From: Stictocephala bisonia
Taxonomy: Eukaryota; Arthropoda; Insecta; Hemiptera; Membracidae
Assembly (NCBI GenBank): GCA_035578905.1
Contig: JAQJVL010000565.1
Coordinates: 473,001-537,000, forward strand
Direction: 5' to 3'
DNA: 64,000 nucleotides
Made by a program: the position numbers and the translations under genes. Shown here one piece after another: positions 1 through 64,000 of the stretch (positions are counted from its first letter, which is position 1; each line of letters opens with the position of its first letter). The notes beneath the pieces were generated by a model. The model saw only the letters and a program-made list of their open reading frames with translations. It searched no databases and had not been told where the DNA came from.

Positions 1-185
1 TCTGTTAGTAAATTACACGATACGCATGCGTTCTTGGTCTGTTAGTAAATTATACGATACGCATGCGGTCTTGGTCTGTTAGTAAATTATACGATACGCA
101 TGCGGTCTTGGTCTGTTAGTAAATTACACGATACGCATGCGTTCTTGGTCTGTTAGTAAATTACACGATACGCATGCGTTCTTGG
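1..185. repeat. 37-bp tandem repeat, 5 copies, cut by window edge
   Basis: Five consecutive 37-bp units run from base 1 to base 185. Copies differ by one or two bases (tacacg/tatacg, gcgttc/gcggtc). Each unit carries the palindrome CGCATGCG. The array starts at the window edge, so its true length is unknown. No coding potential is seen. Confidence 0.95.
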
Positions 186-1218: not shown

Positions 1219-1922
1219 ATATTGCTTGATGACCCTTATCAAATTATATTGCTGTACAATTATGAAACATTTTACTATCTCTTTTTCTTACAAGTAGCTT
1301 TTCCTAGAACATACTAGGCGTTATGGAAGTAGATATTGGAAGGAAGTATCCTAAGACCGAAGAGAGGTTGAATCAATAGCGAGCATCACGTCTATTGTGG
1401 CAGTCACGCCCGGAGTCTCGGAGGGCCTTTTGTTCTTCATCTTACCTAATTATTAGCTAACAAACCAATAAATATGTATCACTGACTAATTAATTGTATA
1501 CAAATTAATAAAATGGACATCTTTCAAATATATAATTATAAAGTAAAAGAATTAACCAACAATTTGTGAATATATGACTAAAATATTTTTAATATTATCC
1601 TTTGTAATATTTAACAATTAATATTGTAAGTATTAAGTTAATTACACAGAAAGCTTAGATTAATTTTATTAAAGAAGCAATATATTCAATATTTAATCCA
1701 GTTTATGTTTTCCGGTAATGTAAGGCAGAAGTCATCTGCCGCCCGTTAGCAGTGACACCAGAGTTACGATATCACAATCCGATGGCTGATTTCTCAGACA
1801 CATAACAACAATGACAGTGGTTTCATATCTTTGCCTTCATTTTAAAAGAGTTCGCTAATCATATAAAAATAGATTAAACCACACTCACTAGTTCTTGGTG
1901 TACGCCGGTACAACTTAGTGCA
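1219..1922. other. AT-rich stretch without recognised feature
   Basis: No gene or element was recognised. A small GC-richer patch around 1380-1435 shows no motif I can name. Confidence 0.45.
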
Positions 1923-4182: not shown

Positions 4183-6495
4183 CATGTGTTACTTTTATTG
4201 CCATTTATTGTTATGAGGTATGTTATAAACTGAAGTATTTTATTTAAAATACTTTTCCTAGAACATACTCTAGTCGTTTCCCAACCACCTAAATACGATA
4301 ACAGTCGTTTCATATGTTTGATCTCATATTTGAAGGAGTAAGCATATTATAAGAAACTTACATCATACATGGGAAGTATGCAGAATAAGATTAACAATAT
4401 TATTCCTTAACTTAACATTATCTACATAAAAAGTATATATAGTAGGATTACTACACCTATAATATATTTATTTTAATACATCAAATTGGAATCATGTGTT
4501 TTATATTCCATGATAGTCAAAGTACAAGTGAATTAAAAACCTAAGAACCTAGCATCAAATAACTAAAACTATAGTTAAATTAAGAAAGTTCACCAGCCGT
4601 AAAAGTTAAATTTTTACTTTCGTTCTTAAACATTATAATGTTTGTTGGTAAAAAAATGTGGGTCGGATGGTGTACACAGGCAGCAAGGCCGTTAATTAAG
4701 CTAGTGCTTGTTTTCCGCCTGACTTCTGAATGTGCGTTGATTCTTAAAATTCTTAAAACACTTTAATCAGCTTAATTCACTCTTTTGTCTCTTATATATT
4801 TTTGAGCTTTGAGATTATTAAAATTTGATTTTTAATATTATAGTGTTAACATAATTATTTAATACATTGGAAATAAAATATCTCTAAATGCTCAACCAAC
4901 CTAAATATAAGAAAATGTGTAAATATTAAAATTCAACACAACTTATTTCCAAAAATTGTTTGTAGTATTATTTTTACTATACCATAAGTATAGCCATTAA
5001 ATTAAATTCTTGTGGTATAGTCAATATAGAGAAAATAAAATTTTGCAATCTATGTATGTGGTTGCAGAGAGAGATAGTAGTTGTCATTTTGTCAGTCATT
5101 GAAATTTAAAGTTTACAGACTATTAAAGCTGTAGATAGCGATAACTTGTTTGAATACATTACCAAGGCATTGCAATAAGATGAATCAATAGCAGTACCAA
5201 TTAAATCACATTATTTAAATTCACCTTGGTTTTACACTTTCTTTATGCAAACAATGTTTTTTTCAGTTTGCATAAGACAATGTGAATCACTACATTAGTA
5301 ACACTAATTTCATATACAACAACTCAAAAAAAAAAAAAAACTACTGAGTCTTGGTTTTAAATGTTCATGTAAACATTGAAGTGGAGATCTGATTGTATTG
5401 AATTGCAAATACCTTGGAAATGCACATTTAATAAAACGTTGGATGAAAAGAAAAAAAAGAATTGATATGGTACTTAAGTGAGTATCTTTTTAAATTTAAT
5501 GAATTATTTGCAAAGCGTAAATGATGGTGAATTAAAAACTGATATCATTATTAATGGTATATACAATGTTTTTATAAAAGTATATAACAAAATCAAACAT
5601 ATTATTATTAATAACATAAGGAAGTTTTATATTTGGTTATTCTTTACAGGATAGACTCAGGATATTATACAGTTCAGTTAAACAATATTAAGAACCATTA
5701 TTTAAAACGTTAATAATAGTTATTAAAAAAATTAATAAATGATGGCAAATACTATATCCCTTATAACTTTCTTTGTTATTTTATATAAACTGAAAATGTA
5801 AAGTCTTTCTTATTTGTAATATATAGCACAACAATTTAACCAGACTTATGTACCTACACTCAAAACTAAGTTACCAAAATTTTTTTATTACAAAAACTAT
5901 AACAGTTTTTTAAAAATTGGATAATAAAGTTATAAAAAAAGTTATTCAATTGACTGACCACATTGATTCTAGTTCAGATTGTGTCTATAGATGATTTGTA
6001 CACCTGGCAAAAGTTTGGTAGCTGTAGGATAATTAGTTTTTTAGAAATTTGGAAAACGGTAATAAAAACACTGGTTTCAAGAAATCAACTTTACAGTCAT
6101 AATTATCCATAAAACTATCCACCAGCATAAGAAACTCCTTCACTTCTTTGCAAATTTGTTCCTATAGGAGTCTTATTATTGCAGATTAGCAGACTTTCAT
6201 CCTGTTATCCCAGCTTCCAGAGTGTCTATTTCTACTTTTGTTTGCTTTGTTACTGCGCAGCGTACCAATATCAATCATAACCTGGAATAACTGCAGGACC
6301 TTTGATTTACTTAGGTTTCTCTCAATATAAACTTTATAGACCTTGGCCAATAGTTCACATACAGTAAACTGACCTTCCATTTACTTCATAGGTATTCTTT
6401 GTGCCTTCAATTATTATTTTTTTTTTTTTTTTACAAAAGTAGCCTACAGTTTTTAGATTACACGACGTGCACTGAAATAAAATTGCTAAGCCTAA
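4183..6495. other. AT-rich stretch; no supported gene
   Basis: Homopolymer runs (A about 5326-5340, T about 6418-6432) and AT-rich sequence. A 64-codon minus-strand frame at 6186-6380 lies just downstream of the Mutator-like relic at 6496-6750 on the same strand. It has no motif I recognise, so it is not called. Confidence 0.4.
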
Positions 6496-20293: not shown

Positions 20294-23200
20294 CTATACA
20301 CCTTTGAGTTTCATCAGTTTAGAGTTGGGCTTTTCATTTTCTTTGAAGTGCTGCCTTCGTTTTTGAAACATTAAGGCTCCATCTCGAAGATCTTGTGATA
20401 TCCACTTTAGGTTATAGAAGATTTTCATTTTTACAAAATGTTCAAGTATAAACTGGCGATGATCTTTACACTCATCGGAGAACCATTCAGGAAAGCCGGC
20501 TTCAATATCTTTCCTCACGGCCAGGTTAATTTGTTTTTTCAAATCTCTTTTTGTTTTTAGCTTATTAAAATGGTGGGTAAACGAGCTTGTGGTGGCTTTA
20601 ACTACTTTGTAAAATGAAGTAGTAGGTATCTTCAACCCTTTGACATGGCCATCTGAGTTGGAGTTGTATTGCTTGAATTTAATCAAGGTTTCTTCTGGTA
20701 AAATCATTTCTTCCCTCGGTTTTGTTAACTTCACAGTGCAATTGTTGCAGGCATATTTATCTACACATTTCTTTGCAAGCCAGCCTGCCATGTAATTAAT
20801 TACACTATCTTCCAAGTTTACAGCTGCACCATTGTTCTTCTGCAGGTCAATAACTGCAAGTGGCATCGTGTCACATGTAGCATCTGTCAACCCCAGTGGC
20901 GTGGTCAGAATGGTGTCCGTCGACTCAATTGGCGTGGTCAAGGTGGTGAAATCGGAACTCAGCAGGGTGATGTCTGTCGTCTTATGTGGTGTGGTCAGAG
21001 TGTCATATATGGCTGTCAACTGAAGTGGCGTGGTCAGGGTGGCGAAATCTGAAATTTGCGGCAGGGCCATGTCCGTAAACTGAGGTGGCGTGCTTAGGGA
21101 GGTGGCGTCTGGTTGATCCGATAAATTGTGCCTGTTACAATTTATAAGTTCTCTTGGGAAATCTACGGTGATGTCGTCATCCGGTTCACAATTCGAGCTA
21201 TCCGGTGGTGTCATGAGACGAATTGATACTGCATGTTGAAGATTTCTTCTAAATTGACTTGCAGTAGGGTTAGCGTTATACCCACCCCTTTGTCTAATCA
21301 CTCCAAACATGTTCTCTATAGGGTCCTGGTTCATTCTTGATGTTAATAAGTAGCTGGTGCCTTCTGATTTTAGGTCTGAATAAAGTCCGAGAATCGCTCT
21401 AATTGTAGATATTAATCCAGAAAAACATGGTGGAGCTTTGACCCTCTTCACTTGTCCTTTTTTGGTTGATGTAAACTTGTTTAGTTTCCAGGATTGTATG
21501 TTCGCAATGGCTTCTTTCAAGTACTGTTCCACTTGAGGATTTTTTTCTGACAGTGGTCGTCGTAAGGGACATTTCTCACACTCACTGCGGCTGTTCAAAC
21601 AATCTGTAATGTTATTGCAATTTTGCAAAAAAATCAGCTGTGTTTAGAGTTGTTACACTCTTTAGTTCGCCAATTGCATAAGAAGCTTTCATGCCTCTAC
21701 TCACAGAATTACTAAACACTTGTGTGGCGAGATTAACTTTCATACGATGGAATTCGTTTGGTTTTATGTGTCTCTGGGTAAGTTTTGGAGCCGCTCTACA
21801 ATCATTGACAGATCTTCTGTCAAGTTCATAGAATTCTTCTATGTCAGACCACTTCACTACCTTACCTTCGACTTCAATGTCACATTTTAGGAGTGTATTG
21901 CGTATTGATTTAATAAGATGGGGTGCATCATAAATACAATATATTTTGTGCTCATTGAAAAGGAAGTGTGGCTCTTTTTCTGTTAGCCCCAAGAGGTTTA
22001 AAGCAGCAACATTGGTGGAACCTTGGTCACAAACGGTGCCTCTAACCTTCAAGCCTGCTTGAAATAGTTTGTCAAGGCACATATCTAACAAAATAGTTAG
22101 TGCAGTAGCTGGTGTCGCGTTTTCACAAAGCGTGAATGCAACTGGCAGTTTCCACCTGTACTTTATCCCACGCACCATGAACAATAGTGCATGGGTGGCT
22201 ACGCTATCTGCTCTTCCTAGGGGTCCCAGATCTTGTAAACCTTCAATTAGGTCTTGGGTCGGGTCATACTGAAGGTTCTTTTTAATGCTCATCTCGTCCC
22301 ACATGAGAACACAGTCTTTCTCAAATTCACTCATACTTTTAACCTTTAGTTTAAGTTTTTTAAACACTTCATTTGAAAACCCACTTTCTAGCCTAGTGAG
22401 GTTAATCCACTGCTGCACAGTTCTTACACAAGGGAGCTTAAACCCTCTAGAAATCAAAAACAAATAAACAGACGGAGACTTGTAATACAGAGAGAGAGAA
22501 AAGTTTTTTTCTTCATTTGTCCATTGAGTTCTTTTCAAATGAAAAATTTGCATGTTCAAAAAAGTCAGTACGTCTCCAGAAACACATTTACTTAAGGTAT
22601 TCAATAAAATATTTTTGTGGTTGACAGGGGAAAGTCCCTTTTTCTTCAGTTTAAATAATTTTTTTCTCTTCGAAGTCAAAAGTACTGTCTGTTTATGTAT
22701 ATGGTTTTTTTGAGTATCAATCTTTCTCTTCAATAGTTTTTTCCTTGGCGTGAGGTCTTCATTGGGGGTGTTCTCAATAGACGTAAAATCTGATAAAAAG
22801 CTTTGGAGAGATTCATCTTCATTCTGATTTTCCGTTTGTGTTGTCGAAGAACATTTAGTGTTACACTTAGTTAACAATATACAGCTGTTGAGTTTACCAC
22901 TTATACTGTCCGTTGATGTTGTTGTCTGAGATGACCTGTTTGTTAAAGCTGTTGTAGGCATCCATGGTGATGGTGTGGGACGATTTGACGAAATATCTTC
23001 ACTACTTTCCTTTTCTGTATAATGACTTTCCGTTGATGTCGTTGTCAGAGATGTTCTGGTTGCTGAAGATGTTGTAGGTGTCCAAGGTGATAGTGTTGGT
23101 AGATTTGACGAAATATCTTCACTGCTTTCCTTTTCTTTATAATGTGGTATAGGAACAGCATTTTTATTTATCTTATTTCTTAAAGAGTTGGAAAAGTCCT

Positions 23201-26051
23201 TGCCTTCAAAGTGATTACTGCAAATGCGTTTATTTTTTAAAATCTTGTCTGGCAATTCAATGAAATCGTCACGCCCACTGCTTGCTATCCAATCACAGCA
23301 CCTAAAAATACAAATGTTTTTTAGGACTTACAGTACAAATTGGATGATTCCCTGTCATGATTATGATAGATTCAACTCCATGTTCAAACCTTTAAGTTTT
23401 GCAAATGCAAAGAAGGATCAGCCAAATATTATTAAACTTTGTGATAAAGCTATTGTTATGAAATAACAACTTGTATTAGAACTGTCATTTTGGAATGTTG
23501 CGTTATAACTGGTCAGAGATTAAAATTAATAAATATGACAGAATGTACGAGCAGACGTAAAATAACCTAAATCGTTTGTTTAGGGTTGTTCAGCTATCTT
23601 ATACGTTTGTTTGGCCTTAGTTACCTGTAAAATGGAAAAATAAAGTGGGCGTTGCTAGCCTCACACCAGCAGCGCCCATTAGTCAATTAAATTTGAGGTA
23701 AATGCAATTTAAATCGTTTACTTAGCTCTATTTAGCTGTGTTTGTCATTTGTTTGGCATTAGTCACTCTAGGATTCTAAAATTAAAGTCGGCGCTGCTAA
23801 CACAACACTAGCAGCCCAGATTTCAAAAATGTAATTGATAAATATGTATTGTTTATCATTTTGTTAATTTTGTATCTTTTTCCAACGTGTTTAATACGAT
23901 GCTTTCACGTATAAGCCTCGACGCACACCACTTATAAACAAATCAGAAATACTTCGTATTAAAATTGGGAAGGAAATTTCCCACGGTTGCTGAAGACTCT
24001 GAGCTTTCCCACGCGCTCAGCAAGATAACAGAATGGAAGGGATTACCGTGATGCGCCAAAAATTACATCTGTACAGCAATGATAACCAGATGTATTTCCT
24101 GTTCATGGCCAAAATGTAATTCCTTATATTCTTGTCATAAAAGTTGTATTTTTTTATTTACTCAGTTTATACAAGTTAGAAATGGTTGTATCAATAAATG
24201 CTGAGTAATGCATTTACGGAACAGATGTCAAATAATTAATTCTGTTAAAGCAGTGCCTACATTGTTTTTCGATTTACAATAATACATTAAAGCTTGACAT
24301 ACGTTAAAGCAGCAGTAAAATTGGGGTAATAATGCAAAATCTGTGGTTTTAGCCTCCTTCCATATTTCCTTAACTATTCTCGTTTTTGCCTCGATTCCTA
24401 TAATAAAAATACGTAAACAAACGATTCAACTGGTGTTTAGATAAAATAAACGAATGGGCACTGCTGGTATGAAGCTAGCTAGCATTGCCCACTAGCAGCG
24501 CTCACTTTATTTTTTCAATTCAAAAGCAACTAAGGCCAAACAAACCTAAACAAAAGATTCTGTTATTTTTCAGTTCAAATCAACTAATGGGCGCTGCTGG
24601 TTTGAAGCTAGCAGCGCCCATTTTATTTCTTGATTTTAAAGGCGTCAGGGATAAGTTTTGGAAAATAGCTAAACAAACGATAAACAAACTATTAAAGTTA
24701 TTTTAACGTCTATTTTCAATATGGGCGCTGCCAGCTTCACATACATGAGCTCTTTGGTCAATGTGTAATTCTAGTAGCTTCCGTTCTCACGGATATTTTC
24801 GGTTTCTATAGGCATAGCTACATAGAGTAACCACAATAGTAAACACAACAATCACAATTTCAAATTAGATATATTTAAAATTGCTTTTTACAAAATGATA
24901 AAACTAAACCAAACGCAATAGCATAAACAAATCAGTGACAGTCTGAAGTGTGTGAAATACTATAACAGCTGTTTATTTAATTGAAATAAAGTAAGCTAAA
25001 CACATACGACATAAATCTGTTAATATATTTCTTCCATTTCATTCCATAACAATTTTACCACACAGTTTAATAATATTTGGCTGATCTTTCTTTGCATTTG
25101 CATATTTTACTAAAACAATCTGTTTACATTAATTATATTCGCCACTTTAAATGAAATGATATTAAAATCAAAATATTAATCATCCAAAATCATATGATTC
25201 CATAGATACGTAAAAGCAAACTTATTTCCACACCGATAACATTTAAATTTTGAAGAAAATTACTGTGTAGTTTCCCATTCTGTAATGCATTCCATGGTCA
25301 TGGTATTAAACTATTTAAAAGTGTGGAAAATTAAATTATAATAAAACATATTATAATGTAATAAAAAACACTGTTTTAAGTGCTGCTTTTGTCACCAGGC
25401 TTTTAAACTATTTATTGTGTAGGAACTTTAAGTATTAATCTTAAAGTTATTTATATTTACAGTAAGTAATATAGTTTTACTATTAATCAAGCATCTGTTA
25501 AAATTTACAATGGTTATTTTTCATTAAATGTTTTATAAATTTGAGTCAAGAGTGTGGAACGATTGCTTCAATAAATTATTCTATATGGCAATCAAAAAAT
25601 TATTTAAACTAGTTTTGTTTCAAACATTTCTCGTAAATCCCTAACACATATAACACCTTAATAAATTATATACAATTTTTTTCAAAGTTTTTCACTAAAA
25701 CGGAATATATTTATCTATATGGTGTACTTATTTATTGTTAACTTATAATAGTAAATTTAATGTTAACATTACAAACATCCCATTTTCCATCTCTCAGTGT
25801 AGAAAATTATAATGCGTAAGTTGAAGGTTCAAGCCGTTGCACCAGGTTCAAAAGGTACACCAGTCAGTCTTAAATGTAATTTTTTTGACTCATTAGTGTA
25901 GTGTTTGTCACATAAAAAAACAATATAAATAAAAAATAAAATGCGCTTACCTTTTCTTGTTACTCGCAGGGAAACAGAAAAAACTCAGTTTATTGCTGGT
26001 CTTATTATTAGAGTCACACCCTAAATAGTGACACTTCACATAACTACTCAT
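20294..26051 (-). CDS. THAP-domain P-element-type transposase (two exons, one frameshift)
   Basis: DNA-binding transposase acting in the nucleus on the ends of its own element. Exon 1 runs 26051-25951, starts at ATG and ends at a GTAAG donor. Exon 2 runs 23301-20294 after a TTTTAG acceptor. Together they complete a THAP zinc finger (residues about 1-86): ligands C7, C12, C61 and H64, W38, and the closing AVPIP motif. Then follow a linker with a tandem 40-residue duplication (87-166), a basic region, and the RNase H-like core with candidate catalytic D369 (MWDEMS), D459 (VCDQGS) and D693/E696 (QDPIE). YDAPHLIKSIRN (about 492-503) and RQRGGYNANPT are also P-type signatures. A threonine-rich insert (about 766-856) precedes NYMAGWLAKK. 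One extra base in a 7-T run (21627-21633) breaks the frame; removing it gives exactly 1,035 codons plus stop. It may be a real mutation or an assembly error. The domain calls are from family knowledge. Confidence 0.92.
23302..25950 (-). other. Intron 1 of the P-like transposase (2,649 bp)
   Basis: On the minus strand it begins GTAAG at the exon 1 end and finishes TTTTTAG before exon 2. The splice joins the two halves of the THAP domain in frame, which strongly supports it. The part next to exon 2 (23580-24750) holds the GC-rich palindromes listed separately; the remainder is AT-rich without motif. Confidence 0.85.
23580..24750. repeat. Intronic module with five GC-rich palindromes
   Basis: Imperfect palindromes built on TGGGCGCTGCTGG and its complement lie near 23645-23680, 23787-23820, 24453-24506, 24588-24623 and 24720-24750. 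The clearest, 24589-24621, is almost fully self-complementary. Flanks are shared too: the two left copies carry GTTTGTTTGGC-like sequence and the right copies carry the inverted AAACAAAC forms. The whole is a large inverted arrangement of a unit of about 140 bp. They could be protein-binding sites; that is inference. Confidence 0.75.
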
Positions 26052-26355: not shown

Positions 26356-28690
26356 GAAGTATGTAGTCATATCTGGTAAAGTATTTTTTCAAGGAGAGTT
26401 TAGAGTCACTTAGATTGTGTTCAATGATTTAAGGCAGACAATTCATAGTTTGAACCTGGAGGTATGTTCTTATATCCGGTAATTTAACCTGTCAAGACCA
26501 GTAACTGTTCAGAGTCACTTAGACTGTTTATAACTAGTCAAAGCAGACAGCTCACCGTATGAACCAGGTGGTATATATATCCGGTAATTTAACCTGTCAA
26601 GACCAGTAGTTACAGGTGTTCAGAGTCACTTAGACTGTTTATAACTAGTCAAGGCAGACAGCTCATCGTGTGAACCAGGCGGTATGATCTTATATCCGGT
26701 AATTTAACCTGTCAAGACCAGTAGTTACAGTTGTTCAGAGTCACTTAGACAGTTTATAACTAGTCAAGGCAGACAGCTCACCGTATGAACCAGGCGGTAT
26801 ATTCTTATATCCGGTAATTTAACCTGTCAATACCAGTAGTTACAGTTGTTCAGAGTCACTTTTTGCACTTTTTTTGCACTGTTTATAACTAGTCAAGGCA
26901 GACAGCTTACCGTATGAACCAGGTGGTATGTTCTTTATCCAGCAATTTAACCTGTCAAGACCAGTAGTTACAGTTGTTCAGAGTCACTTAGACTGTTTAT
27001 AACTAGTCAAGGCAGACAGCTTACCGTATGAACCAGGTGGTATGTTCTTTATCCAGCAATTTAACCTGTCAAGACCAGTAGTTAGAATTGTTCAGAGTCA
27101 CTTAGACTGTTTATAACTAATCAAGGCGTCTGCAGATGACAGCTCATCATCATTTGAACCATAAAGTATGTTCTCATATCCAGTGAAGTAACATGTCGAG
27201 AACAGTTTAGAGTCACGTAGATTGTGCTCAATGATTTAAGACAGACAGTTCATTGTGTGAACCAGGACATATATACTCATATCCAGTGAAGTAATATGTC
27301 GACAACAGTTTAGAGTCACTTATATTGTGCTCAGTGAATTAAGGCAGACAGTTCACTGTGTGAACCAGGAAGTATGTTCTCATATCCTGTGAAGTAATAT
27401 GTCGAGAACAGTTTAGAGTCACTTAGATTGTGTTCAATGATTTAAGGCAGACAGTTCATTGTGTGAACCATAACGTATGTTCTCATATCCAGTAAAGTTA
27501 TATGTCGAGAACAGTTCAGAGTCACTTAGATTGTGCTCAATGATATAAGGCAGACAGTTCATTGTGTGAACCAGGACATATATACTCATATCCAGTGAAG
27601 TAATATGTCGAGAACAGTTTAGAGTCACTTAGATTGTGCTCAATGATTTAAGGCAGACAGTTCATTGTGTGAACCAGGACATATATACTCATATCCAGTG
27701 AAGTAATATGTCGAGAACAGTTTAGAGTCACTTATATTGTGCTCAATGATTTAAGGCAGACAGTTCACTGTGTGAACCATAACGTATGTTCTCATATCCA
27801 GTGAAGTAATATGTCGAGAACAGTTTAGATTCACTTAGATTGTGCTCAATGATTTAAGGCAGACAGTTCATAGTGTGAACCAGGAAGTATGTTCTCATAT
27901 CCAGTGAAGTAATATGTCGAGAACAGTTTAGAGTCACTTAGATTGTGCTCAATGATTTAAGACAGACAGTTCATTGTATGAACCAGGAAGTATGTTCTCA
28001 TATCCAGTGAAGTAATATGTCGAGAACAGTTTAGAGTCACTTAGATTGTACTCAATGATTTAAGGCAGACAGTTCATTGTGTGAATCAGGAAGTATGTTC
28101 TCATATTCAGTGAAGTAATATGTCGAGAACAGTTTAGAGTCACTTAGATTGTGCTCAATGATTTAAGGCAGACAGTTCATTGTGTGAATCAGGAAGTATG
28201 TTCTCATATTCAGTGAAGTAATATGTCGAGAACAGTTTAGAGTCACTTATATTGTGCTCAATGATTTAAGGCAGACAGTTCACTGTGTGAACCAGGAAGT
28301 ATGTTCTCATATCCAGTGAAGTAATATGTCGAGAACAGTTTAGAGTCACTTAGATTGTGCTCAATGATTTAAGGCAGACAGTTCATTGTGTGAACCAGGA
28401 AGTATGTTCTCATATCTAGAGAAGTAATATGTTGAGAACAGTTTAGAGTCACTTAGATTGTGCTCAATGATTTAAGGCAGACAGTTCATTGTGTGAATCA
28501 GGAAGTATGTTCTCATATTCAGTGAAGTAATATGTCGAGAACAGTTTAGAGTCACTTAGATTGTGTTAAATGATTTAAGGGAGACAGTCCATTCTGTGAA
28601 CCAGGAAGTATGTTCTCATATCTGTAATATAATTTGTGAAGAACAGCTTAATCGTTTAGGTCGTGTAAAACCAGTCAAGGCGGTCAGTTC
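26349..28690. repeat. 103-bp satellite, right array (about 22 copies)
   Basis: The main unit is 103 bp with gtgctcaatgatttaaggca, gacagttcattgtgtgaacc and tcgagaacagtttagagtca. The proximal part (about 26470-27130) is a variant with units of 115 bp (starts at 26591, 26706 and 26821), one lengthened to 128 bp by a duplicated tttttgcac. It is the continuation of the 17085-18466 array across the transposon. The last units near 28600-28690 are degenerate. Confidence 0.94.
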
Positions 28691-36904: not shown

Positions 36905-37486
36905 CCATACTTTAAATAAATAAATAAATAACGTCTTTATTTGGATCGTTTTTCAACATACAGTTGTTTTTCAAAGTATTCAAGACAAAGAAAATTACAA
37001 GTATATTGCCAAGGACTAGGCTAAAATTACAAACGACATACATGTTTCAAAACTTACATTTTAAAATAATCATATTCCAATCGTAGCTTAAGCTTATTTT
37101 TAAAATATACATAGCTGAGTGATTTGAAATTCTGTTGTAAATTTGGGGAAGAAAATAATAAAAATTATTCCTTCCCACCTCGAGCCTGACTTTGGGTACC
37201 TGTCCTGGCGCGTGCGACGTTGTCTAAACTCTGAACGAGCCCGCAGCATGTTCCTCAAATAAGTGGGTGTAACAGATAGCAGAATCTTGTGGACTAAACA
37301 AGCCACTTCCAAACTAAATATATGCTTTATTGAAAGTGTTTTCTGCTTTTTCTCGAGCTTGACTGACATGGTAATATTTCCTGAGACCATACACAAACCT
37401 AATGGCTGGGTTTTGCAGTCTTTGGAGTGAGACAGTGTTGTCAAGGTATAACGAATAAACGTATATGTTGAGTCTCGGAGATACCA
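36905..37486 (-). pseudogene. LINE 3' fragment (C-terminal ORF2 region and tail)
   Basis: On the minus strand the pieces SLQRLQNPAIRFVYGLRKY, VPKVRLEVGRNNFYYFLP and QIYNRISNHSAMY resemble the region after the reverse transcriptase in jockey-like LINEs ('LQ..QN.CIRFIYGLR...H' and 'R....FYF.P..YN.LP'). They occur in different frames, so it is decayed. The 3' end reads aataaagacg followed by ATTT repeats (36915-36935). This is a typical 3' tail and is shared with the fragment at 8006. The element is 5' truncated near 37486. Confidence 0.7.
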
Positions 37487-37518
37487 CTGAGGATGCCACA
37501 TCACAGCATGAGCGAAAC
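37487..37518 (+). other. CTGAGGATGCC ... CGAAAC motif (hammerhead-like half-core)
   Basis: CTGAGGATGCC (37487-37497) and GCGAAACGTTTAG (from 37512) flank a short variable stretch. The spacing resembles the degenerate hammerhead-like ends in the Penelope-like relic at 43.7-45.6 kb. No good stem II is formed here. It sits at the boundary of the LINE fragment. Confidence 0.25.
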
Positions 37519-37886
37519 GTTTAGTGATGTACATGTTGTATACAACATATTGACACGTCGTTACCGGAAGGTTTAGGTTTTAGCAAATGATATCGGCCAC
37601 TTAAGCCTACGAGTTCCGATCTCAAAGTCTTGTTGTAAATATTGTGTTCATAAATTATAAGTTATTATATTGCTATAACAATTATTACATTTATATTAGC
37701 ATTAAAAAAATATGATATTAAAATACAATTGGCTAGTTGAAAACTTATCTCTTGAGGTTTAACTAATTTTTTTTAATTTAGATACCACTAAGGTTAATAT
37801 TATTCTCCGTCATCCACTCTAATGGAACTGTATGTCAATGATTGCTTCAAGAAAATGAAGACAATTATATGACATCAACTCAGTTC

Positions 37887-37959
37887 GCTGTAGTGTAATG
37901 GTGAGTAAGAAAACTCTCACCTATTTACACCTGATGAGACGAAACAACGTCGAAACAGC
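37887..37959 (+). ncRNA. Type I hammerhead self-cleaving ribozyme
   Basis: All conserved core positions are present. Stem III is GCTGT (37887-37891) with ACAGC (37955-37959). The cleavage site follows A37892 (GUA). Stem I pairs GTGTAA (37893-37898) with TTACAC (37925-37930). After an internal loop (T against TAT), GGTGAG (37900-37905) pairs with CTCACC (37916-37921) around a 10-base loop. The core CTGATGA (37931-37937) is followed by stem II GACG/CGTC (37938-37941 and 37948-37951) with loop aaacaa, then GAA (37952-37954). Stem III is the closing open helix, so this is type I. In animals such ribozymes are known from Penelope-like elements, SINE-like repeats and satellites. Which host element this copy belongs to is not clear. 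Confidence 0.88.
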
Positions 37960-38354
37960 ACACATGGAGACCATCTGGTCCACGTACCAACATCCTTTCG
38001 GTGTGGCCAATGCATAGCGACCAACTGTTGTCAGAAGGTGCCTTAGCAAGCACTACTTGGAGCGCTATTACTTTTGTTAACGCAGAGTAACCCGTAGACT
38101 GTTGTCAGGCGGAAAACTGCAATCATGTGTAATAATTGATGTCTTAGCGACCAATGGTTGAGGTTCGCCCTCACATGTTAGCGAGTAACATACTCGTGAG
38201 TCCAAAAACCATTCTTAACCAGGTCAGTATGGTTAAAGCGCTTGAAGATAAACTTACTCCACTACTAAGATCTTCGGACTAACAACTAGTCCATCTCGAT
38301 ACTAAGGTTAAAATGGAAAAACGTGGTGTATATGTTAAGAATATTAAACAAAGT
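37960..38354. other. Moderate-GC sequence downstream of the hammerhead
   Basis: This stretch is richer in GC than its surroundings and may be the body of the repeat carrying the ribozyme. The phrase gcgaccaa...gttg occurs twice (about 38018 and 38144), suggesting internal repetition. No second complete hammerhead and no reading frame were found. Confidence 0.35.
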
Positions 38355-38420
38355 TAAAGTTCATTTTATTTTACCTGGCGAAGTTAAGGCTAAGAAGCCC
38401 TCTCCAACACTTCACCTGGG
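38355..38420 (-). mobile_element. Non-LTR retrotransposon 3' tail fragment
   Basis: The minus strand reads aggtgaagtgttggagaggg, then cttcttagccttaacttcgc and caggtaaaataaaatgaac. This is the same 3'-end layout as the fragments at 8006-8063 and 46255-46315. No coding remnant was recognised upstream. Confidence 0.55.
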
Positions 38421-39717
38421 GACCTGTTTAACGTGACTTCCGTACCATGAGAGCGGCAGTGCAAAAACTGTTAGTGGTCATATCGGGAATTGAACTCGGA
38501 TCAAGTCGTGGCTAACCTTTACGTAAGCCTCTTAAAAACTGCCACTCTATGTTATTATATTTAGCTCCTATAGCTCCTTAAACTAAATATAATTTATTTT
38601 TATTAAGTAATAACAGTTTTACAATATCTTTCAAGTTCCAAAAATTGTATCCCTTGAACTATTGTGTTGACTATCCCTTGACTGTCCTAAAAGCTGTTTA
38701 ACTCTGTTTATAATGTTATAATTAATTATTTCACATGAATGATTTATTAAACTCTGTAAATTAATATTTCAAACCGATTTAATTCCATTATAAAATAACA
38801 TTTTTTGAAACTTTACAATTTGTTTACCAAAGTAATTATTTTTTATTAAAATCGGTGTTGTTAGATTTCCCATAACAATTCCTAAAACCTCAGTCTTCAA
38901 GAATTGTTGTCCATAAATACTGATGGTTTTAATATTTTTAATATCGTAAATGATCGCCATTTAGTGATTTGTGATTTGTAAATATCTAAATAAAATGGTT
39001 TATTAAATTCGATTTATTTGAGTTAGCAGGAGATCTTCCAGGTTTGAGAAGAATATTTCAAGTAACCTTTGGAATGTCGATGATTTGTAAACAATACAAA
39101 ATGGCAGGTTAAAGATTAAAGAAGCTGAATTTAAAATAAAAAAATTTTCACAGGACATGTTTGAGTTATTTTTATAGGTAGAATCACGTCAAGACACGAC
39201 ACTGTTGCAGTACTAGCTTAAGTTATGTGGTGTCTTTAATATTTAATTAAATCCGGTAAAATTCAATAATGTAGCCCATAATGAGGTCAAAGGTACGGTG
39301 TATTTTATTATTATAGTAACAAAATTTTAGATCACTAGGAATGAATTTGATCCACAACAATATAACCAAGCAAACCATTACCACAACAATGTTGTGTTTA
39401 TTATAATTAGGTTTGAGTATAGGTATGTGTGGTTTGATTTAATTGATATTATTTTCACAAATAGATTAAAATATGGTAATGTAATTCAAACATTCAAATT
39501 GTAGAATATTTGGAAGAACAGTGTTACATATTTGTTAGTCCTCATATATTGACAGTAAAATATGAACACTTAATGTAACTTATCTAAATTTTATTTGAAA
39601 AATGGTTAGTTTTGAAAATTATATAAAAATATGTCTTGGTTAGTTTTGCATTTGTTCAACATATTAAACAATTATTAAAATATTTCTATTTTAAAGCTAT
39701 TCTGTGGCTGAAGAAAA
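38421..39717. other. AT-rich stretch without recognised feature
   Basis: No gene or element was recognised. A 63-codon minus frame at 38769-38960 shows no domain. Confidence 0.45.
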
Positions 39718-53593: not shown

Positions 53594-55221
53594 ACCTTTT
53601 ACTACTTCAAACGTTGCTTTACAATGTATACAACTACCAAATGGCTAGTTACACTAAAGCCCTATTCATGATGTATCGTGTTTCGTTAACCTTTTACTAC
53701 TTCAAACGTTGCTTGTACAATGTATACAACTACCAAATGGCTAGTTACACTAAAGCCCTATTCATGATGTATCGTGTTTCGTTTACCTTTTACTACTTCA
53801 AACGTTGCTTGTACAATGTATACAACTACCAAATGGCTAGTTACACTAAAGCCCTATTCATGATGTATCGTGTTTCGTTTACCTTTTACTACTTCAAACG
53901 TTGCTTGTACAATGTATACAACTACCAAATGGCTAGTTACACTAAAGCCCTATTCATGATGTATCGTGTTTCGTTTACCTTTTACTACTTCAAACGTTGC
54001 TTGTACAATGTATACAACTACCAAATGGCTAGTTACACTAAAGCCCTATTCATGATGTATCGTGTTTCGTTTACCTTTTACTACTTCAAACGTTGCTTTA
54101 CAATGTATACAACTACCAAATGGCTAGTTATAATAAAGCCCTATTCATGATGTATCGTGTTTCGTTTACCTTTTACTACTTCAAACGTTGCTTGTACAAT
54201 GTATACAACTACCAAATGGCTAGTTACACTAAAGCCCTATTCATGATGTATCGTGTTTCGTTTACCTTTTACTACTTCAAACGTTGCTTGTACAATGTAT
54301 ACAACTACCAAATGGCTAGTTACACTAAAGCCCTATTCATGATGTATCGTGTTTCGTTTACCTTTTACTACTTCAAACGTTGCTTGTACAATGTATACAA
54401 CTACCAAATGGCTAGTTACACTAAAGCCCTATTCATGATGTATCGTGTTTCGTTTACCTTTTACTACTTCAAACGTTGCTTGTACAATGTATACAACTAC
54501 CAAATGGCTAGTTATAATAAAGCCCTATTCATGATGTATCGTGTTTCGTTTACCTTTTACTACTTCAAACGTTGCTTGTACAATGTATACAACTACCAAA
54601 TGGCTAGTTATAATAAAGCCCTATTCATGATGTATCGTGTTTCGTTTACCTTTTACTACTTCAAACGTTGCTTGTACAATGTATACAACTACCAAATGGC
54701 TAGTTACACTAAAGCCCTATTCATGATGTATCGTGTTTCGTTTACCTTTTACTACTTCAAACGTTGCTTGTACAATGTATACAACTACCAAATGGCTAGT
54801 TATAATAAAGCCCTATTCATGATGTATCGTGTTTCGTTTACCTTTTACTACTTCAAACGTTGCTTGTACAATGTATACAACTACCAAATGGCTAGTTATA
54901 ATAAAGCCCTATTCATGATGTATCGTGTTTCGTTTACCTTTTACTACTTTAAACGTTGCTTGTACAATGTATACAACTACCAAATGGCTAGTTATAATAA
55001 AGCCCTATTCATGATGTATCGTGTTTCGTTTACCTTTTACTACTTCAAACGTTGCTTGTACAATGTATACAACTACCAAATGGCTAGTTATAATAAAGCC
55101 CTATTCATGATGTATCGTGTTTCGTTTACCTTTTACTACTTCAAACGTTGCTTGTACAATGTATACAACTACCAAATGGCTAGTTACACTAAAGCCCTAT
55201 TCATGATGTATCGTGTTTCGT
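53594..55221. repeat. 96-bp tandem repeat, about 17 copies, open in frame
   Basis: The unit is 96 bp (starts at 53714 and 53810). It is 32 codons long, so a plus-strand frame stays open through most of the array (53554-54150, then 54093-55238). The encoded unit would contain YNVYNYQMASY, KALFMMYRV and FYYFKRCL. A one-base deletion (gctttacaat in place of gcttgtacaat) in copy 6 breaks the frame; copy 1 has the same variant. Units differ mainly at tacact/tataat. Nothing supports expression, and high homogeneity fits a satellite homogenised by recombination. Confidence 0.95.
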
Positions 55222-56016
55222 TTGTGGTCTTTTCATAAATTATAAGTTGTGCTTTAATTGATTTGTTTATATACAATTCTTAAAGTAATGTATAAACATA
55301 TAACATTCATTAACTCCTTCCTTTTGTTTTTGTGCCATGTTTTCACTCTGTAGAGCACAGTTCTAATGTGAGGTTAGTTTGATTAACTTCTAACAATTTT
55401 CCACTTCCTAGACGAAAGATCTGACACTGTCTTTTACTCTTAGCACTTCATTAATGTAATATATTTTAAGCTCATAAAGTACTAATCATATAAAATACAC
55501 GCACACTTTCCCTTTTTTTAGTCTGATTTTCTAAGTTTGTTGATTTTAAAAGTAATTGCTATGAATAAATATATTTAATACATGGATGATAAAATGTAAA
55601 TTTGTATATACATAAACGCATTGTATTGAATTATTAGCAATTATAAGAATAAAGTAGAATAACACTTTGTTCAAAAATTAGTATATAATTAATACTATTT
55701 TTTTACAGTCAATTTAGTACATTTCGATTCTTTATTTCAGTTTATAATGTTGGTTGTGTCATATCAGATAGCATATTAATATATAGTAAATATAATATAG
55801 TATATATACGTAGCTTTCAATTAGGATACAAACGTATTTTCAATACATATTTGCTATCATATAACAAAACCAATATACAGTACAAATCCATGCAATGTAG
55901 CAATATGTTACTAACATAAGATATATCGGAAAATGTGATAAAGTTTCTTATAAATAGACCTAATTGAAGTAAACATGTTTCAATAACAATCAATTATTTT
56001 TAAATTCGTAGTATTA
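55222..56016. other. AT-rich stretch without recognised feature
   Basis: No gene, RNA or array was recognised. Confidence 0.45.
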
Positions 56017-56477: not shown

Positions 56478-57690
56478 ACCTATACACATACGGTGGTATT
56501 GACCAACCCATCAACCTACACACAAACAGTGAGTGGTGTTGACTCTTCCACTCACTTTTATACGACAGGTTGTGCATGGGTTAGGATGGTTATGCCACCG
56601 TTCGTGTATGAGAGGGTAGGAGAGTGATCACCACCGTACATGCATGACGGAGAGGTAGAAACATCACTGTAGGGCTACATGTAAGATTAGGAGAGTGGTT
56701 CAACATACGTATATAGGTGAGAGTGTAGGTGAGCGGAAGAGCAATTGCCTCTGTACGTTTACAGGTAGACGGGAGTTCCATTACCTCTTTACGTGTATGG
56801 GAGGATGGTAGGGCCATTTCCACTGTATGTGTATTGGTAAGCGGAAGAGCCATTACCACAGTATATGTATGGGAGAGTGGAAGAGCCATTACCACAGTAC
56901 ATGTATGGGTGAGCGGAAGAGCCATTACCACAGTACATGTATGGGAAAGTGGAAGAGCCATTACCACAGTACATGTATGGGTGAGTGGAAGAGCCATTAC
57001 CACAGTACATGTATTGGTGAGCGGAAGAGCCATTACCACAGTACATGTATTGGTGAGCGGAAGAGCCATTACCACAGTACATGTATTGGTGAGCGGAAGA
57101 GCCATTACCACACTACATGTATGGGTGAGCGGAAGAGCCATTACCACAGTACATGTATTGGTGAGCGGAAGAGCCATTACCACAGTACATGTATTGGTGA
57201 GCGGAAGAGCCATTACCACAGTACATGTATGGGAGAGTGGAAGAGCCATTACCACAGTACATGTATGGGAGAGTGGAAGAGCCATTACCACAGTACATGT
57301 ATGGGTGAGCGGAAGAGCCATTACCACAGTACATGTATGGGAGAGTGGAAGAGCCATTACCACAGTACATGTATGGGTGAGTGGAAGATCCATTACCACA
57401 GTACATGTATGAGTGAGCGGAAGAGCCATTACCACAGTACATGTATGGGTGAGTGGAAGAGCCATTACCACAGTGCGTGTATGGGTAGATGGGAGTTCCA
57501 TTATTTCTGTACGTGTATGGGAGGATGGAAGGGCCATTTCCACTGTATGTGTATGGGTGAGTGGAAGAGCCATTACCACAGTACGTGTTCGGGTAGACGG
57601 TAGTGTCATTACCTCTGTACGTGTATGGGATGATGGAATAGCTATTTCCACTGAACGAGTATGGATGGGTGGGAAAATACGTATTATGTT
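56478..57690. repeat. 36-bp minisatellite, about 30 copies with degenerate edges
   Basis: The core (about 56835-57480) is made of 36-bp units with ggaagagccattaccacagt then acatgtatgggtgagc, differing mainly at gtgagcg/gagagtg and tgggtg/ttggtg. Edge units are divergent. At 56478-56560 they are in reverse orientation (cacatacggtggtattgacc) and from about 56570 they switch to forward. A three-unit block at 56764-56837 recurs at 57486-57559. Long open frames on both strands follow from the 36-bp period and are not genes. Confidence 0.93.
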
Positions 57691-57861
57691 GCAGTAAGGG
57701 TAATCATAATTAGGTACTTAGAAGTCTCTTGCGACAAATATTTCATTTTTCAAGTTTACTAAGTATTATAGTAATTCTTTTTTAGGTGCCCCACTTACCG
57801 ACATGGGGCGACATTTACTGACTCAACTCAATGAAATCACACAACCTCAAACCTCAATCAA

Positions 57862-58824
57862 AGTTCAATACGACTGCTTCATCAAAATGCCCAATTTACC
57901 ACTAAAAAATTAGAAGAAATCCAAATCATGTGTGAGGAGTTAAAAACAGACGTGCTTGTGGTAACTGAAAATGGATTCAATAACAATAATATCTATCGTT
58001 GTCAAATTCCAAATTTCAATTTAGCCAGGTCATATTGCCTTCAACTCTCCAAAGGAGGAGGTGTCGCAATTTTCGTGAAACAAAATTATGCTTTCGACAC
58101 GCTCATTCTCAATGAGGCGATCGAAAAAGATTTTGAGGCAGTCGGTATAAAATTTCACACACAAAATTCAAAAATAGTCGTAATCGGCATATACTGATCT
58201 CCCAGTGGAAATGAAGGTATATTTTTCTCAAAACTCGAATCATTATAATGCACCTATCAGCAGAGAAACAGAATTATGTCCTGATGGGTGACAATTGACG
58301 CGTTGGTCGACAATTCTCCAATCACAAAAAGATTGATCGACCTGCTAAGAACGTTCGGCCTGGAGTTGTTAATAAATACACCAACGTGGGTATCGGCAGC
58401 AACTCAAACAGCGATCGACAACGTCATCACCAATCTTTCAGGTGTCGCAGTTTACATCGTCAATACAGTGATTTCTGACCACTACGGCCAAGAGGCTGTA
58501 ATTAGTGGGGATGCAATTGTAAGGGAGCCCAAAATTACCAAAACAATAAGAGACACAAGGCCAAGTAATATCGCCCTCCTCAACGCTTCCCTTTCTAAAG
58601 AAAAGTGGAAATGTTTCAATTCATCACAGTCAATCGAAAATAATTTTAAATATTTTTCAGACTGCCTGAATTTTTACTTAAATACATGTTGTCCTACTAA
58701 AACAATCAATGCTTTACCAAAAAAGAAAAATAACAAATGGATAACTAAAGGAATTTTGGTTTCGAGAGAAAAACTAAAATTTTACTCCAAAATTTACAAA
58801 ACAAATACAAATCAACATTTCTAA
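57862..58824 (+). pseudogene. LINE ORF2 endonuclease (EEP) region and linker
   Basis: From 57862 one frame reads SSIRLLHQNAQFTTKKLEEI and continues through CEELKTDVLVVTENGF to KGGGVAIFVKQN. This corresponds to the start of LINE endonucleases ('LLHQNAQSL..K..EL' and 'LKPDIL..TE', with E as a metal ligand). A TGA at 58195 interrupts it after VVIGIY. The block MHLSAEKQNYVLMGDN, the family's 'GDFN' metal-binding motif, lies in another frame. The frame then returns at 58288 with DALVDN and runs to 58824, including TQTAIDNVITN and VISDHYG (the terminal 'SDH' motif). The domain is therefore essentially complete but broken by at least one stop and a compensated pair of frame changes. Confidence 0.82.
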
Positions 58825-59176
58825 ATGTTTTATCAAAATTACAAAAGAATTTACAGAAATGTTATTCAAGCCACAAAATCGTATAATGTATCCAAAGCAA
58901 TCATTTTATCTAAAAATGTTCACAAAACTGTGTGGGACATCATAAACAATAAGCAAATAGAACGGAAATGAATTAAAGTTAAAGTTGGGGAAAGACTTGT
59001 GGACGATCCGACCGATGTGGCAAACGAGTTTAATAGATTCTTCGCGTCTGTTGCTTTTGAGCTCGGCGCCTGTCATTCACCTCCACAAGAAACCCCTATG
59101 CGTATACGGAGCCCAGTTACATAAATGGTACTGGCTCCGGTAGTTCCCAGCCAAAAAATCAAACGATATAAATGTA

Positions 59177-60476
59177 ATGTCCATGTGGCTCACTAAAAAG
59201 TTTGCGAAACAGATCATTACACCATTGACGCAATTGATAAATTCATCTTTCGAAAATAGAGTTTTTCCCTTACTCCTTAAAGTTGCAAAAGTATGTCCAA
59301 TTTTAAAGAAAAACGATCATTATTCCATAAATAATTACAGGCCTGTCTCAATTTGCCAGTTTTAAGCAAAGTATTCGAAAAACTCTTTTTCATTAGAATG
59401 GTGCAGTTTCTAAACAGACACAACCTTCTCTCTGACAACCAATTTGGTTTCAGAAAAAAACAAATCGACAGTAGACGCTGTTGTGAGTCTAGTCGAAAAG
59501 GTTGTTCAGGGATTAGAAGATCGAGATTACACACTTAGTGTATTTATCGACTTGTCAAAAGCTTTCGATTGTGTTGACCACTCTAAGCTGCTTGAAAAAC
59601 TTGAATTTTATGGTATAAGAGGAGTGCCACTCAAGTGGCTTCACTCTTTTCTGAACAACCGATTCCAAGTTGTCCAAATTTCAGACAAATTCTCTGAACC
59701 AATAGAGCTGAGATACGGAGTTCCTCAGGGCTCAATACTCAGCCCGATTCTTTTTCTCATCTATGTCAACGACATAGGGTCATCGCTAATGCATGGGCAA
59801 CTCATTCAGTACGCAGATGACACGACCCTTTTATTCAGAAACAAATTAACACCGATCCTTGAACAACAAGCTTTTTTTGATTTAAACAATTGTGTCCAAT
59901 ATTTCAACAGTCTCAATCTTGAAATAAACCCCTCAAAATGTAATGTTTTGTCATTTTCGTTGCGACCATATGATAACATGGAGAGACCACTCATTTGGCT
60001 GGCAGATAAACGGTTATATAAGACTGTTAGTTCAAAATTCCTGGAAATACACCCGGATCGAGGGTTGACCTGGAATTCGCACATGGACCACATTTGCTCC
60101 AAATTGTCCTCAGGCATTTATGTTTTGAGAACGTTAGCAAAATTCTGCTCAATTCGTTTTAATGACGGCGTATTACGGTCTGATTTATCCCCATCTCACC
60201 TACGGTGTGGTGCTGTGGGGAGCTTCTGCAAACAATCAGTTTAGCAGAGCATTTAAATTGCAAAAACAAGCCGTTCGCATTGTTGCACAATTGAAGTTCA
60301 GAGAAACCTGCAAAGAAACATTCAAAAAATTGCAACTGTTGACATTGCCTAGCCTTTACATACTGGAGACAACCTATTTAGCATATCCAAAAGCGTTATT
60401 ACAAGTAGCCGGGACATACATACACACGACACATGAGGAAGAAACCACTACCGAACTGAGAATCACAGGACGGTAG
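59177..60476 (+). pseudogene. LINE reverse transcriptase and C-terminal region
   Basis: RT blocks occur in order: NNYRPVSI (about 59330), LPVLSKVFEKLFF, LSDNQFGFRKK, STVDAVVSLVEK, FIDLSKAFDCVDH (about 59546), YGVPQGSILSPILFLIYVND (about 59716) and the catalytic YADDTT (about 59810). The post-RT segment from 60162 reads AYYGLIYPHLTYGVVLWG, then KLQKQAVRIVAQLKFR. This matches jockey/CR1-like LINEs. The 59444-60244 part is one clean frame of 266 codons. Frame changes lie at about 59355, in a 7-A run (59454-59460) and in a short T run near 60160, so the copy is disrupted mostly at homopolymers. Confidence 0.88.
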
Positions 60477-62923: not shown

Positions 62924-64000
62924 TTAAAAGTGCCCTGGTCCATACTGAGAGTCATCAGCCTCACTTTTGTCTTCTTCCATGAGTCTCTTCCTCCTTCTTG
63001 CTATTCTTGCTTCTTTGGTCATTTCTTCCGCAGATTTATTTGCTTTTTTTAGTCGTAAAACATCAATATTGCGCAGGGCACTTACGGATTGTTCAGACAA
63101 ACTTAGGCTTAACTTCCTATAAATTTCTAACTTACTGCTTTGTCCATCATTGAAGCACAACAAAGCATCATATATACTTATTTTCAAAGTTTCCAACCTT
63201 ACAAACACTTGTTTTGGTTCTTTCAGCCATACCATATGGTTAAAACTTTCATTCGGATTTTGGGTATGTCCGTGAACACACTTTTTCAGAAGATCATTGT
63301 CTGTCAGAGCTCTGTATATGTTTTTGACTTTTAACATCACATTATTGGGTAGGCTATTTTTGTGTTTATGGGTCTTACCTTCAGCTTGAGCTTTGTTATA
63401 GGAGCACCATGTATCTGGTCCTTTGGGGCACAAACCATGCTGGGGGTTGTCGTCGGTTGATATTTTGTGAAAATATGTAGACCATATATTTTTCTTCATT
63501 TCTTCAACACTACTACCCCCTCTTCTGATTGCAAGGCCATAATAGGTTTGCAACTTGCCTATTTTCTCATTGGTAAGTCTATGTCTTCCACCAAGCATTT
63601 TACCATCAGGAAGTATTTCCCTACCTGTTTTCTTTTTCAAATCTTTCAATCTGCTTCCCATTCTTTTCTCCACATGTCCTATACATTCTAGCTTCTCAAT
63701 ATGTACATCATCACCATATGGTTTATTGATATTTACAGTCTGGAAACCTTTGCTGTCCCCATCACCAAGGTACCTCGTGTATCGCACTCCACGGTTTACT
63801 GAATTTTTGAAAACCTGTAAAGCACCAGCAACCTCCATACCACCCGAGGACCCTTCGTAATTCTTGGTGCACACATGATCTATAGGCCTATTTGTTTGAG
63901 TTGAGCAAACCTGGCAGTATTTTGAAAGGATTGCAACATCTAAGACCTTACCAGTATCAAAGCTTGTCACACTAACTAGGCCATTTAGGGATTTAAAACC
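62924..64000 (-). CDS. Mutator-like (MULE) transposase, C-terminal 358 codons, 5' part outside window
   Basis: The minus-strand frame is open from the right edge, with no start inside the window, to a TAA at 62924. It begins GFKSLNGLVSVTSFDTGKVL, matching the block after the first catalytic Asp of insect Mutator-like transposases ('RGF.SLNG.V...S..TGKV.D'). YLGDGDSK (residues about 77-84) carries the second catalytic Asp. ECIGHVEKRMG (about 105-115) carries the C-x2-H motif and candidate third acidic residue. Cysteines at CQVC may be structural. A conserved FNHMVW (about 244-249) and a basic tail ending YGPGHF complete it. There is no internal stop. The protein cuts and pastes its element's DNA in the nucleus. 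Terminal repeats were not found in the window, so element limits are unknown. The relic at 6496-6750 may be the same family. Confidence 0.85.
   Translation of the reverse strand, partial: GFKSLNGLVSVTSFDTGKVLDVAILSKYCQVCSTQTNRPIDHVCTKNYEGSSGGMEVAGALQVFKNSVNRGVRYTRYLGDGDSKGFQTVNINKPYGDDVHIEKLECIGHVEKRMGSRLKDLKKKTGREILPDGKMLGGRHRLTNEKIGKLQTYYGLAIRRGGSSVEEMKKNIWSTYFHKISTDDNPQHGLCPKGPDTWCSYNKAQAEGKTHKHKNSLPNNVMLKVKNIYRALTDNDLLKKCVHGHTQNPNESFNHMVWLKEPKQVFVRLETLKISIYDALLCFNDGQSSKLEIYRKLSLSLSEQSVSALRNIDVLRLKKANKSAEEMTKEARIARRRKRLMEEDKSEADDSQYGPGHF

Follow-up and report, generated by a model that had tools for sequence, protein, structure and literature searches.

Background

Viroid RNAs are able to cut themselves on both strands. 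Among genomic elements with hammerhead ribozymes, metazoan retrozymes carry type I hammerheads and measure ~170-400 nt (PMC7229834, PMC11722881); the non-LTR retrozymes of metazoans are described as short, non-coding tandem repeats with a GC content below 50% and with target-site duplications that exceed the 4 bp seen in plants, and their spread through RNA circles has been proposed (PMC7229834). Plant LTR retrozymes, as described in PMC4918200, bear a type III hammerhead on one strand, yield an RNA of about 700 nt, and possess LTRs with primer-binding sites as well as 4-bp duplications. According to a 2024 review, the retrozymes known so far carry one ribozyme (PMC11721086).

Hammerheads in both polarities are described for CarSV, the plant retroviroid of carnation, a 275-nt small circular RNA with a head-to-tail DNA form that is extrachromosomal and fused to pararetrovirus sequence (PMC11722881). 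They are likewise described for HDV-like RNAs of toad and termite, animal circular RNAs of ~1.5-1.7 kb that encode a delta antigen and have type III hammerheads in both polarities; type III motifs are also known in termite and fly DNA, and the results given for the structure search of the same source report none in hemipterans (PMC7936874). Zeta-virus-like RNAs have a length that is a multiple of 3 and endless reading frames in both polarities (PMC11721086).

Penelope-like elements (PLEs) are associated with hammerheads that are described as minimal type I variants (PMC7229834). The purified PLE protein of Anolis is reported to cut and extend both target strands, and to initiate in vitro at two internal positions of the RNA that are adjacent and enclose the genomic tail (PMC11167929). 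For bdelloid PLEs, a 31-bp tail is described together with short duplications and inverted repeats, and antisense templates were considered by the authors (PMC3846280).

Among the titles and abstracts listed in searches of open-licence full texts, none dealt with an animal genomic retroelement with paired hammerheads; a genomic retroelement with hammerheads on both strands appears to be the combination missing until now. Here we describe a candidate for such an element in the treehopper Stictocephala bisonia, a truncated copy of which lies in a 64,000-nt stretch of DNA (the window).

Methods

The source assembly comprises 1.683 Gb in 11,105 contigs, and its COX1 matches a cluster of Membracidae at 99% identity, the second-best match, likewise from Membracidae, being at 90%. 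Positions are those of the window unless a locus is named, and window positions equal those in locus L001 plus 36299. Unit coordinates follow one genomic period, L010:2144-2847 (704 nt). The copy analysis took in 40 loci, namely the window and 39 loci elsewhere (L009-L047), and copy numbers are lower bounds. Target-site duplications were sought in 38 loci (L021 and L033 were left out), with 12 bases inside the element allowed. The gathering score of RF00008, the Rfam model of type III hammerheads, is 48.5 bits.

Results and discussion

Hammerhead at positions 37887 to 37959

The preliminary description reported a complete hammerhead core with three helices and a GUA triplet at 37887..37959 on the plus strand (hereafter HHR+), and this is borne out by the sequence, by RNAfold, by shuffle tests and by the genomic copies. 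In 5' to 3' order, the motif consists of helix III (37887-37891/37955-37959; GCUGU...ACAGC), which holds both the 5' and the 3' end; A17 of the GUA triplet (37892), with cleavage predicted at 37892|37893; the hairpin of helix I (37893-37898/37925-37930), in which an internal loop leads to an inner 6-bp helix (37900-37905/37916-37921) capped by a 10-nt loop; CUGAUGA (37931-37937); the hairpin of helix II (37938-37941/37948-37951); GAA (37952-37954); and the second strand of helix III. The open-ended helix is thus helix III, both other helices being closed, which makes HHR+ a type III hammerhead; its predicted fold combines the conserved core, the three helices, an NUH site and an open helix III. 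The label "type I" under which it was first reported is ruled out by topology, helix I being closed by a hairpin rather than open-ended, and the comparison with animal type I repeats falls together with that label.

RNAfold draws all three helices (-23.2 kcal/mol, z -3.25), and none of 200 shuffles was equally stable. A strict type III descriptor gave one match in the window and two matches in total over 2,241 dinucleotide shuffles of the window, and the pattern CTGATGAN{4,34}CGAAAC occurs once in the window versus 0.03 expected occurrences. The core is intact in 66/69 full copies of the 40 loci examined, and the core together with 15 pairs in 54/69. On this sequence evidence we regard the hammerhead as real, although misnamed before, and predict that it cleaves itself.

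Element copy in the window

HHR+ had been described as lying in surroundings without a recognised gene, with the adjoining segment 37960-38350 as the possible body of a small ribozyme-bearing repeat. Both points stand, inasmuch as HHR+ is part of such a repeat and the adjoining sequence belongs to its body; the limits had to be redrawn to ~37799-38300, the body extending upstream of the ribozyme as well. This copy of ~500 bp consists of a first arm on the plus strand (37799..38249; unit 65 to 515; L001 1500-1950) and a second, inverted arm on the minus strand (38248..38300; unit 53 to 1; L001 1949-2001) that makes up its last 53 bases, with the fold-back junction near 38248-38250. It is flanked by 14-nt repeats that match at 13/14 positions (repeat family D8; 11 nt exact) and represent the left (37787..37800, ACTAAGGTTAATAT) and right (38301..38314, ACTAAGGTTAAAAT) target-site duplications, the left of which may overlap the element start by one or two bases. 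BLAST found no further copy of the element inside the window. A 14-nt repeat at 37479 was considered as part of the element and dropped, having no further support, and the frame 37100-37579 was rejected as a gene, as it matched no Pfam family at E<=0.001.

Repeat unit and second hammerhead

A genome search for further copies, proposed in the preliminary description, revealed a repeat that is dispersed and partly tandem. The query 37800-38350 gave at least 117 match rows in the source assembly (best 40 of 536 candidates scored), the long ones among the matches listed being mostly 92-100% identical, and a query from the unit stretch that is absent in the window copy gave at least 40 matches (best 40 of 67 candidates) of 86-100% identity. 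Head-to-tail copies of this family (family 1) have a period of ~704 bp. The 704-nt unit has a GC content of 0.4375, and its longest stop-to-stop frames are 52 and 87 aa.

The unit contains a second, compact type III hammerhead (HHR-; unit 623-673) on the strand opposite to HHR+, composed of helix III (GCGU/ACGC), C17 of a GUC site, helix I (UUGCGC/GCGCAA), CUGACGA, helix II (GAGA/UCUC) and GAA. It was invisible to the preliminary description because the window copy is truncated and lacks this part of the unit. Any strict type III match arose in only 2/141,427 shuffles of the 704-nt frame (lengthened by 100 bases). HHR- is intact in 9/17 full copies from 12 loci; of the eight broken copies, L020 contributes five, and L021, L033 and L038 contribute one apiece. 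Another 17 pieces of 68 bases, taken from other copies, have an intact core in 15 cases and an intact core with its pairs in six; the two exceptions are L079, with one core change, and L087, the piece of which does not align through the core. Minor-letter rates among copies are 0.0076 for HHR+, 0.0222 for HHR- and 0.0135 for the rest, and cannot show selection given that the copies are near-identical.

A covariance-model match had also been suggested as a check on the motif, and on this point the outcome went the other way: across the 64,000-nt window, every Rfam family stayed below its gathering score; in 37300-38900, there was no match to an Rfam hammerhead family at E<=5, and there was none at E<=10 on L010:2144-3330, which contains both family 1 hammerheads. 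We consider this miss outweighed by the shuffle results, by the copies that are intact and by the ribozyme of the other strand, and the motif was retained on structure, copies and shuffles. Rfam matches to snoRNA and thermometer families near both hammerheads scored far below their gathering values and were discarded. A search of the phages collection at E<=1e-5 gave no match, and viral contigs scanned for exact occurrences of one stretch from either hammerhead gave 0 matches for each.

A second, unrelated family

Searching the genome with RF00008 at E<=10 gave 12 rows, all below the gathering score of 48.5 bits, the best of them (38.2 bits) in a second family; at the same threshold, matches were also obtained in 7/14 control genomes, none above gathering. 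This family 2, without BLAST similarity to family 1, accounts for 9/12 rows (L054-L062, on six contigs). Our own descriptors found no hammerhead in L063 and L064, and one round of them found none in L065. The type III hammerhead of family 2 has the usual size, a GCGUA site and CUGAUGA. Copies of this family form inverted pairs; from the alignment rows, we read a period of ~857 bp for L055 and, for L054, a tail of 39 nt (1165-1203). On the strand opposite to its hammerhead lies a smaller type III core (within L055 1264-1343, minus strand) with CUGAAGA, GAA, a helix II of 2 bp and a helix III of 10 bp. A descriptor fitted afterwards to this smaller core matched 4/251,744 shuffles, and finds the core only in L055 and L060, which together form a single two-armed insertion; the CUGAAGA and GAA letters of the core persist in L058 and L059 with a mismatched helix III, and L061/L062 span it only in part. 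Under the more far-reaching reading given below, the presence of two unrelated families in one insect would suggest that elements intermediate between retrozymes and viroids have arisen recurrently.

These counts bear on whether both ribozymes of family 1 matter. If the ribozyme of one strand were functional and the other decayed or a chance motif, the element would be an ordinary one-ribozyme retrozyme of unusual type, a reading favoured by the broken HHR- in 8/17 full copies and by the weakness of the smaller family 2 core, with its 2-bp helix II, its mismatched helix III in L058 and its passing of the fitted descriptor in one insertion only. We nevertheless consider it very improbable, as strict type III matches came up in just 2/141,427 frame shuffles, the HHR- core is intact in 15/17 further copies, and the core pairing recurs in the unrelated family 2 (by chance 4/251,744, with a descriptor fitted after the fact).

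Insertion anatomy and polarity

The 40 loci comprise 28 two-armed insertions, the arms of which face inward in the HHR+ sense, and 12 one-armed insertions. Two-armed copies combine one A end (unit -11..+3) with one B end (unit 43..66) in 27/28 cases, with no AA and no BB combination; the remaining locus, L033, is cut by a contig end. The A and B ends lie ~50 nt apart in the unit. Nine of the 12 single-arm loci start at B and two at A, L021 being cut, and two of them have a short opposite piece (17 nt in L047, about 5 nt in L018). The longest arms run for 3.02, 2.84 and 2.63 turns. Inner ends are variable, with 24/68 falling within unit 450-500 (51 nt), which points to a preferred stop of reverse transcription.

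At 21 diagnostic sites, differences amount to 40/780 (5.1%) within insertions versus 8881/41546 (21.4%) between insertions, and no label shuffle out of 2,000 was as low as the within-insertion value, with or without L020; when all sites are taken, the contrast is smaller (2.0% within versus 2.8% between). This sharing of haplotypes is as expected if each insertion was copied from a single template, either a circle or a homogeneous multimer, and does not by itself separate the two. Duplications scoring 10 or more were present at the expected place in 30/38 loci, with a length of 10-15 nt; scores of 8-9 were obtained in L023, L038, L044 and L045, and no credible duplication was found in 4/38 loci (L011, L013, L014 and L019). 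When the search was confined to the flanks, 8/38 loci scored 10 or more (mean 7.6), and in 190 control comparisons between different loci the score averaged 5.3 and never exceeded 10.

Long-read sequencing is known to produce artificial inverted joins, and the assembly is in 11,105 contigs. An origin of the inverted copies from such joins or from misassembly is nonetheless hardly credible, given that the copies are spread over many contigs of up to 26 Mb with different flanks, that 30/38 loci have a duplication of their own, and that the A plus B pair is found in 27/28 two-armed loci.

Since only the outer ends are constant in position, the inner ones being variable, synthesis is likely to have begun at the outer ends. 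Both cDNAs would then be of HHR+ sense, copied from the strand that bears the GUC hammerhead; in family 2, the same reasoning would make the strand with the larger hammerhead the template.

Candidate machinery

A GIY-YIG search of the host genome gave at least 150 rows (best 150 of 4,772 candidates scored), of which at least 13, among the matches listed, lie in frames of exactly 803 aa. RVT_1 and GIY-YIG domains were confirmed in L068, L071 and L067. PLEs are abundant in the host (e.g. C1027:160966-173732; L066-L071) and form tandem arrays and inverted copies: on C1027, five PLE copies form a tandem array with a spacing of 2,634 bp, after which comes one in inverted orientation, and the inverted arms of the PLE locus L070 measure 418 bp. 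Hammerhead-like cores were observed downstream of the PLE frame in several of L066-L071.

As a genomic pattern, family 1 agrees with PLE-type integration in its two adjacent start sites, in the extension of both target ends and in the tail between. Like PLEs as described (PMC11167929, PMC3846280), it shows tandem and inverted arms, two starts with a "tail" between them, short duplications and an association with hammerheads. Unlike PLEs, the element has no reading frame (the 704-nt unit contains no RT + GIY-YIG frame of its own, its longest stop-to-stop frames being those of 52 and 87 aa) and no sequence in common with the host PLE loci; a comparison of six PLE loci with families 1 and 2 found chance-level words only.

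Mobilisation by a LINE rather than a PLE would also have to be weighed, as the window itself has a LINE-like reverse transcriptase (57835-60476; RVT_1). L1-style twin priming yields inverted arms and duplications similar in length to those seen here. It would, however, leave the second start unfixed, whereas both ends are fixed here, as in the account of the PLE protein (PMC11167929), and we regard a LINE as a most improbable vehicle.

Proposed life cycle

The genomic anatomy of a fold-back retroelement with a ribozyme per strand is well supported by the DNA copies, and we consider it fairly probable that the window holds a truncated copy of a non-autonomous, PLE-mobilised, retroviroid-like "two-stranded retrozyme". 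For its RNA life we infer the following course. A ~704-nt non-coding RNA would carry a type III hammerhead in each polarity, and multimeric transcripts of either polarity would cut themselves to unit length and then be closed to circles in vivo. The polarity with the GUC hammerhead, that is the complement of the window ribozyme, would be the one copied into DNA. A PLE reverse transcriptase with its GIY-YIG endonuclease, the presumed enzyme, would make staggered cuts in the target, roughly 11-14 nt apart, and reverse transcription would start at two fixed internal sites ~50 nt apart, one per target end. The distance that each cDNA covers around the template would vary, reaching up to 3 turns, and both cDNAs would be joined as a fold-back between target-site duplications. 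RNA-to-RNA rolling-circle copying would be the reason for the ribozyme on the strand that is not reverse-transcribed.

We count for this proposal the two hammerhead folds in the 704-nt frame, the family 2 pairing, the fixed A and B ends, the multi-turn arms, the haplotype sharing, the duplications, the two-site starts of PLEs, and the GIY-YIG and RVT_1 frames of PLEs in the host. Against it we count the lack of an Rfam report of the family 1 hammerheads, the intactness of HHR- in only 9/17 full copies, the small contrast over all sites, the passing of the smaller family 2 core in one insertion only, the lack of sequence common with the six PLE loci compared, and the 4/38 loci without a credible duplication.

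In both families, the strand that would not be reverse-transcribed also carries a hammerhead, which is needless for a plain retrozyme and thus argues for RNA-to-RNA copying. The same pairing might arise in a retrozyme without RNA-to-RNA replication, if copies were transcribed from either side by neighbouring promoters and one circle polarity were reverse-transcribed. As fold-backs lie in random orientation, a ribozyme per strand would let transcripts of either direction become unit circles; moreover, fold-backs would place both polarities in one read-through transcript, and paired ribozymes need no RNA polymerase. We hold this alternative to be rather unlikely, as it offers no clear use for the ribozyme on the polarity that is not reverse-transcribed, present as it is in both families. 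Beyond the two-stranded retrozyme itself, the element may be a vertically inherited, viroid-like RNA replicon of animals, with circles of both polarities, symmetric rolling-circle copying, a type III hammerhead per strand and Penelope-type two-site genomic archiving; this we put forward tentatively, with chances that we judge somewhat below even.

Comparison with described elements

With metazoan non-LTR retrozymes as described in PMC7229834, family 1 shares short non-coding tandem repeats with hammerheads, a GC content below 50% and duplications of more than 4 bp, the length in plants; unlike them, it has type III rather than type I hammerheads, a unit of ~704 nt rather than 170-400 nt, one ribozyme per strand, and fold-backs with a fixed end pair. 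Like plant LTR retrozymes (PMC4918200), it has a type III hammerhead and a length of about 700 nt, and it differs from them in its duplications of 10-15 nt (30/38 loci) instead of 4 bp and in its ribozyme on each strand. Hammerheads in both polarities and a head-to-tail DNA form, the marks of a retroviroid, are both found in family 1 as in CarSV (PMC11722881); unlike CarSV, the element is present in an insect as many chromosomal copies with target-site duplications, and is known from DNA copies. The circular HDV-like RNAs of toad and termite (PMC7936874) resemble it in that each polarity bears a type III hammerhead, and the type III motifs of termite and fly DNA are a further parallel; those RNAs are unlike it in their larger size and delta antigen. 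Viroids of the Avsunviroidae are set apart from it by having no DNA form, since genomic copies exist here, and Zeta-virus-like RNAs by their frames, as 704 is not a multiple of 3 and stops interrupt the frames.

If the proposal is true, RNA-to-RNA replication of an animal retroelement becomes directly testable, and paired ribozymes in metatranscriptomes alone would be no proof of an exogenous agent. The fold-back copies would further constitute a base-by-base record of a reverse transcriptase starting twice on one template.

Other features of the window

The window contains remains of several other mobile elements. A P-element-like transposase in two frames (20294-23327, minus strand) has TNP-like RNase H domains and Tnp_P_element, with THAP just below the cut-off; LINE-like remains in several frames occupy 57835-60476 on the plus strand, with RVT_1 in 59414-60244; and a Mutator-like transposase domain (PF20700) lies at 62924-63970 on the minus strand. 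Long minisatellite arrays were observed at 1918-4183 (79 bp), 27155-28622 (103 bp), 53594-55223 (96 bp) and 56778-57672 (36 bp), the 96-bp array with 98% matches.
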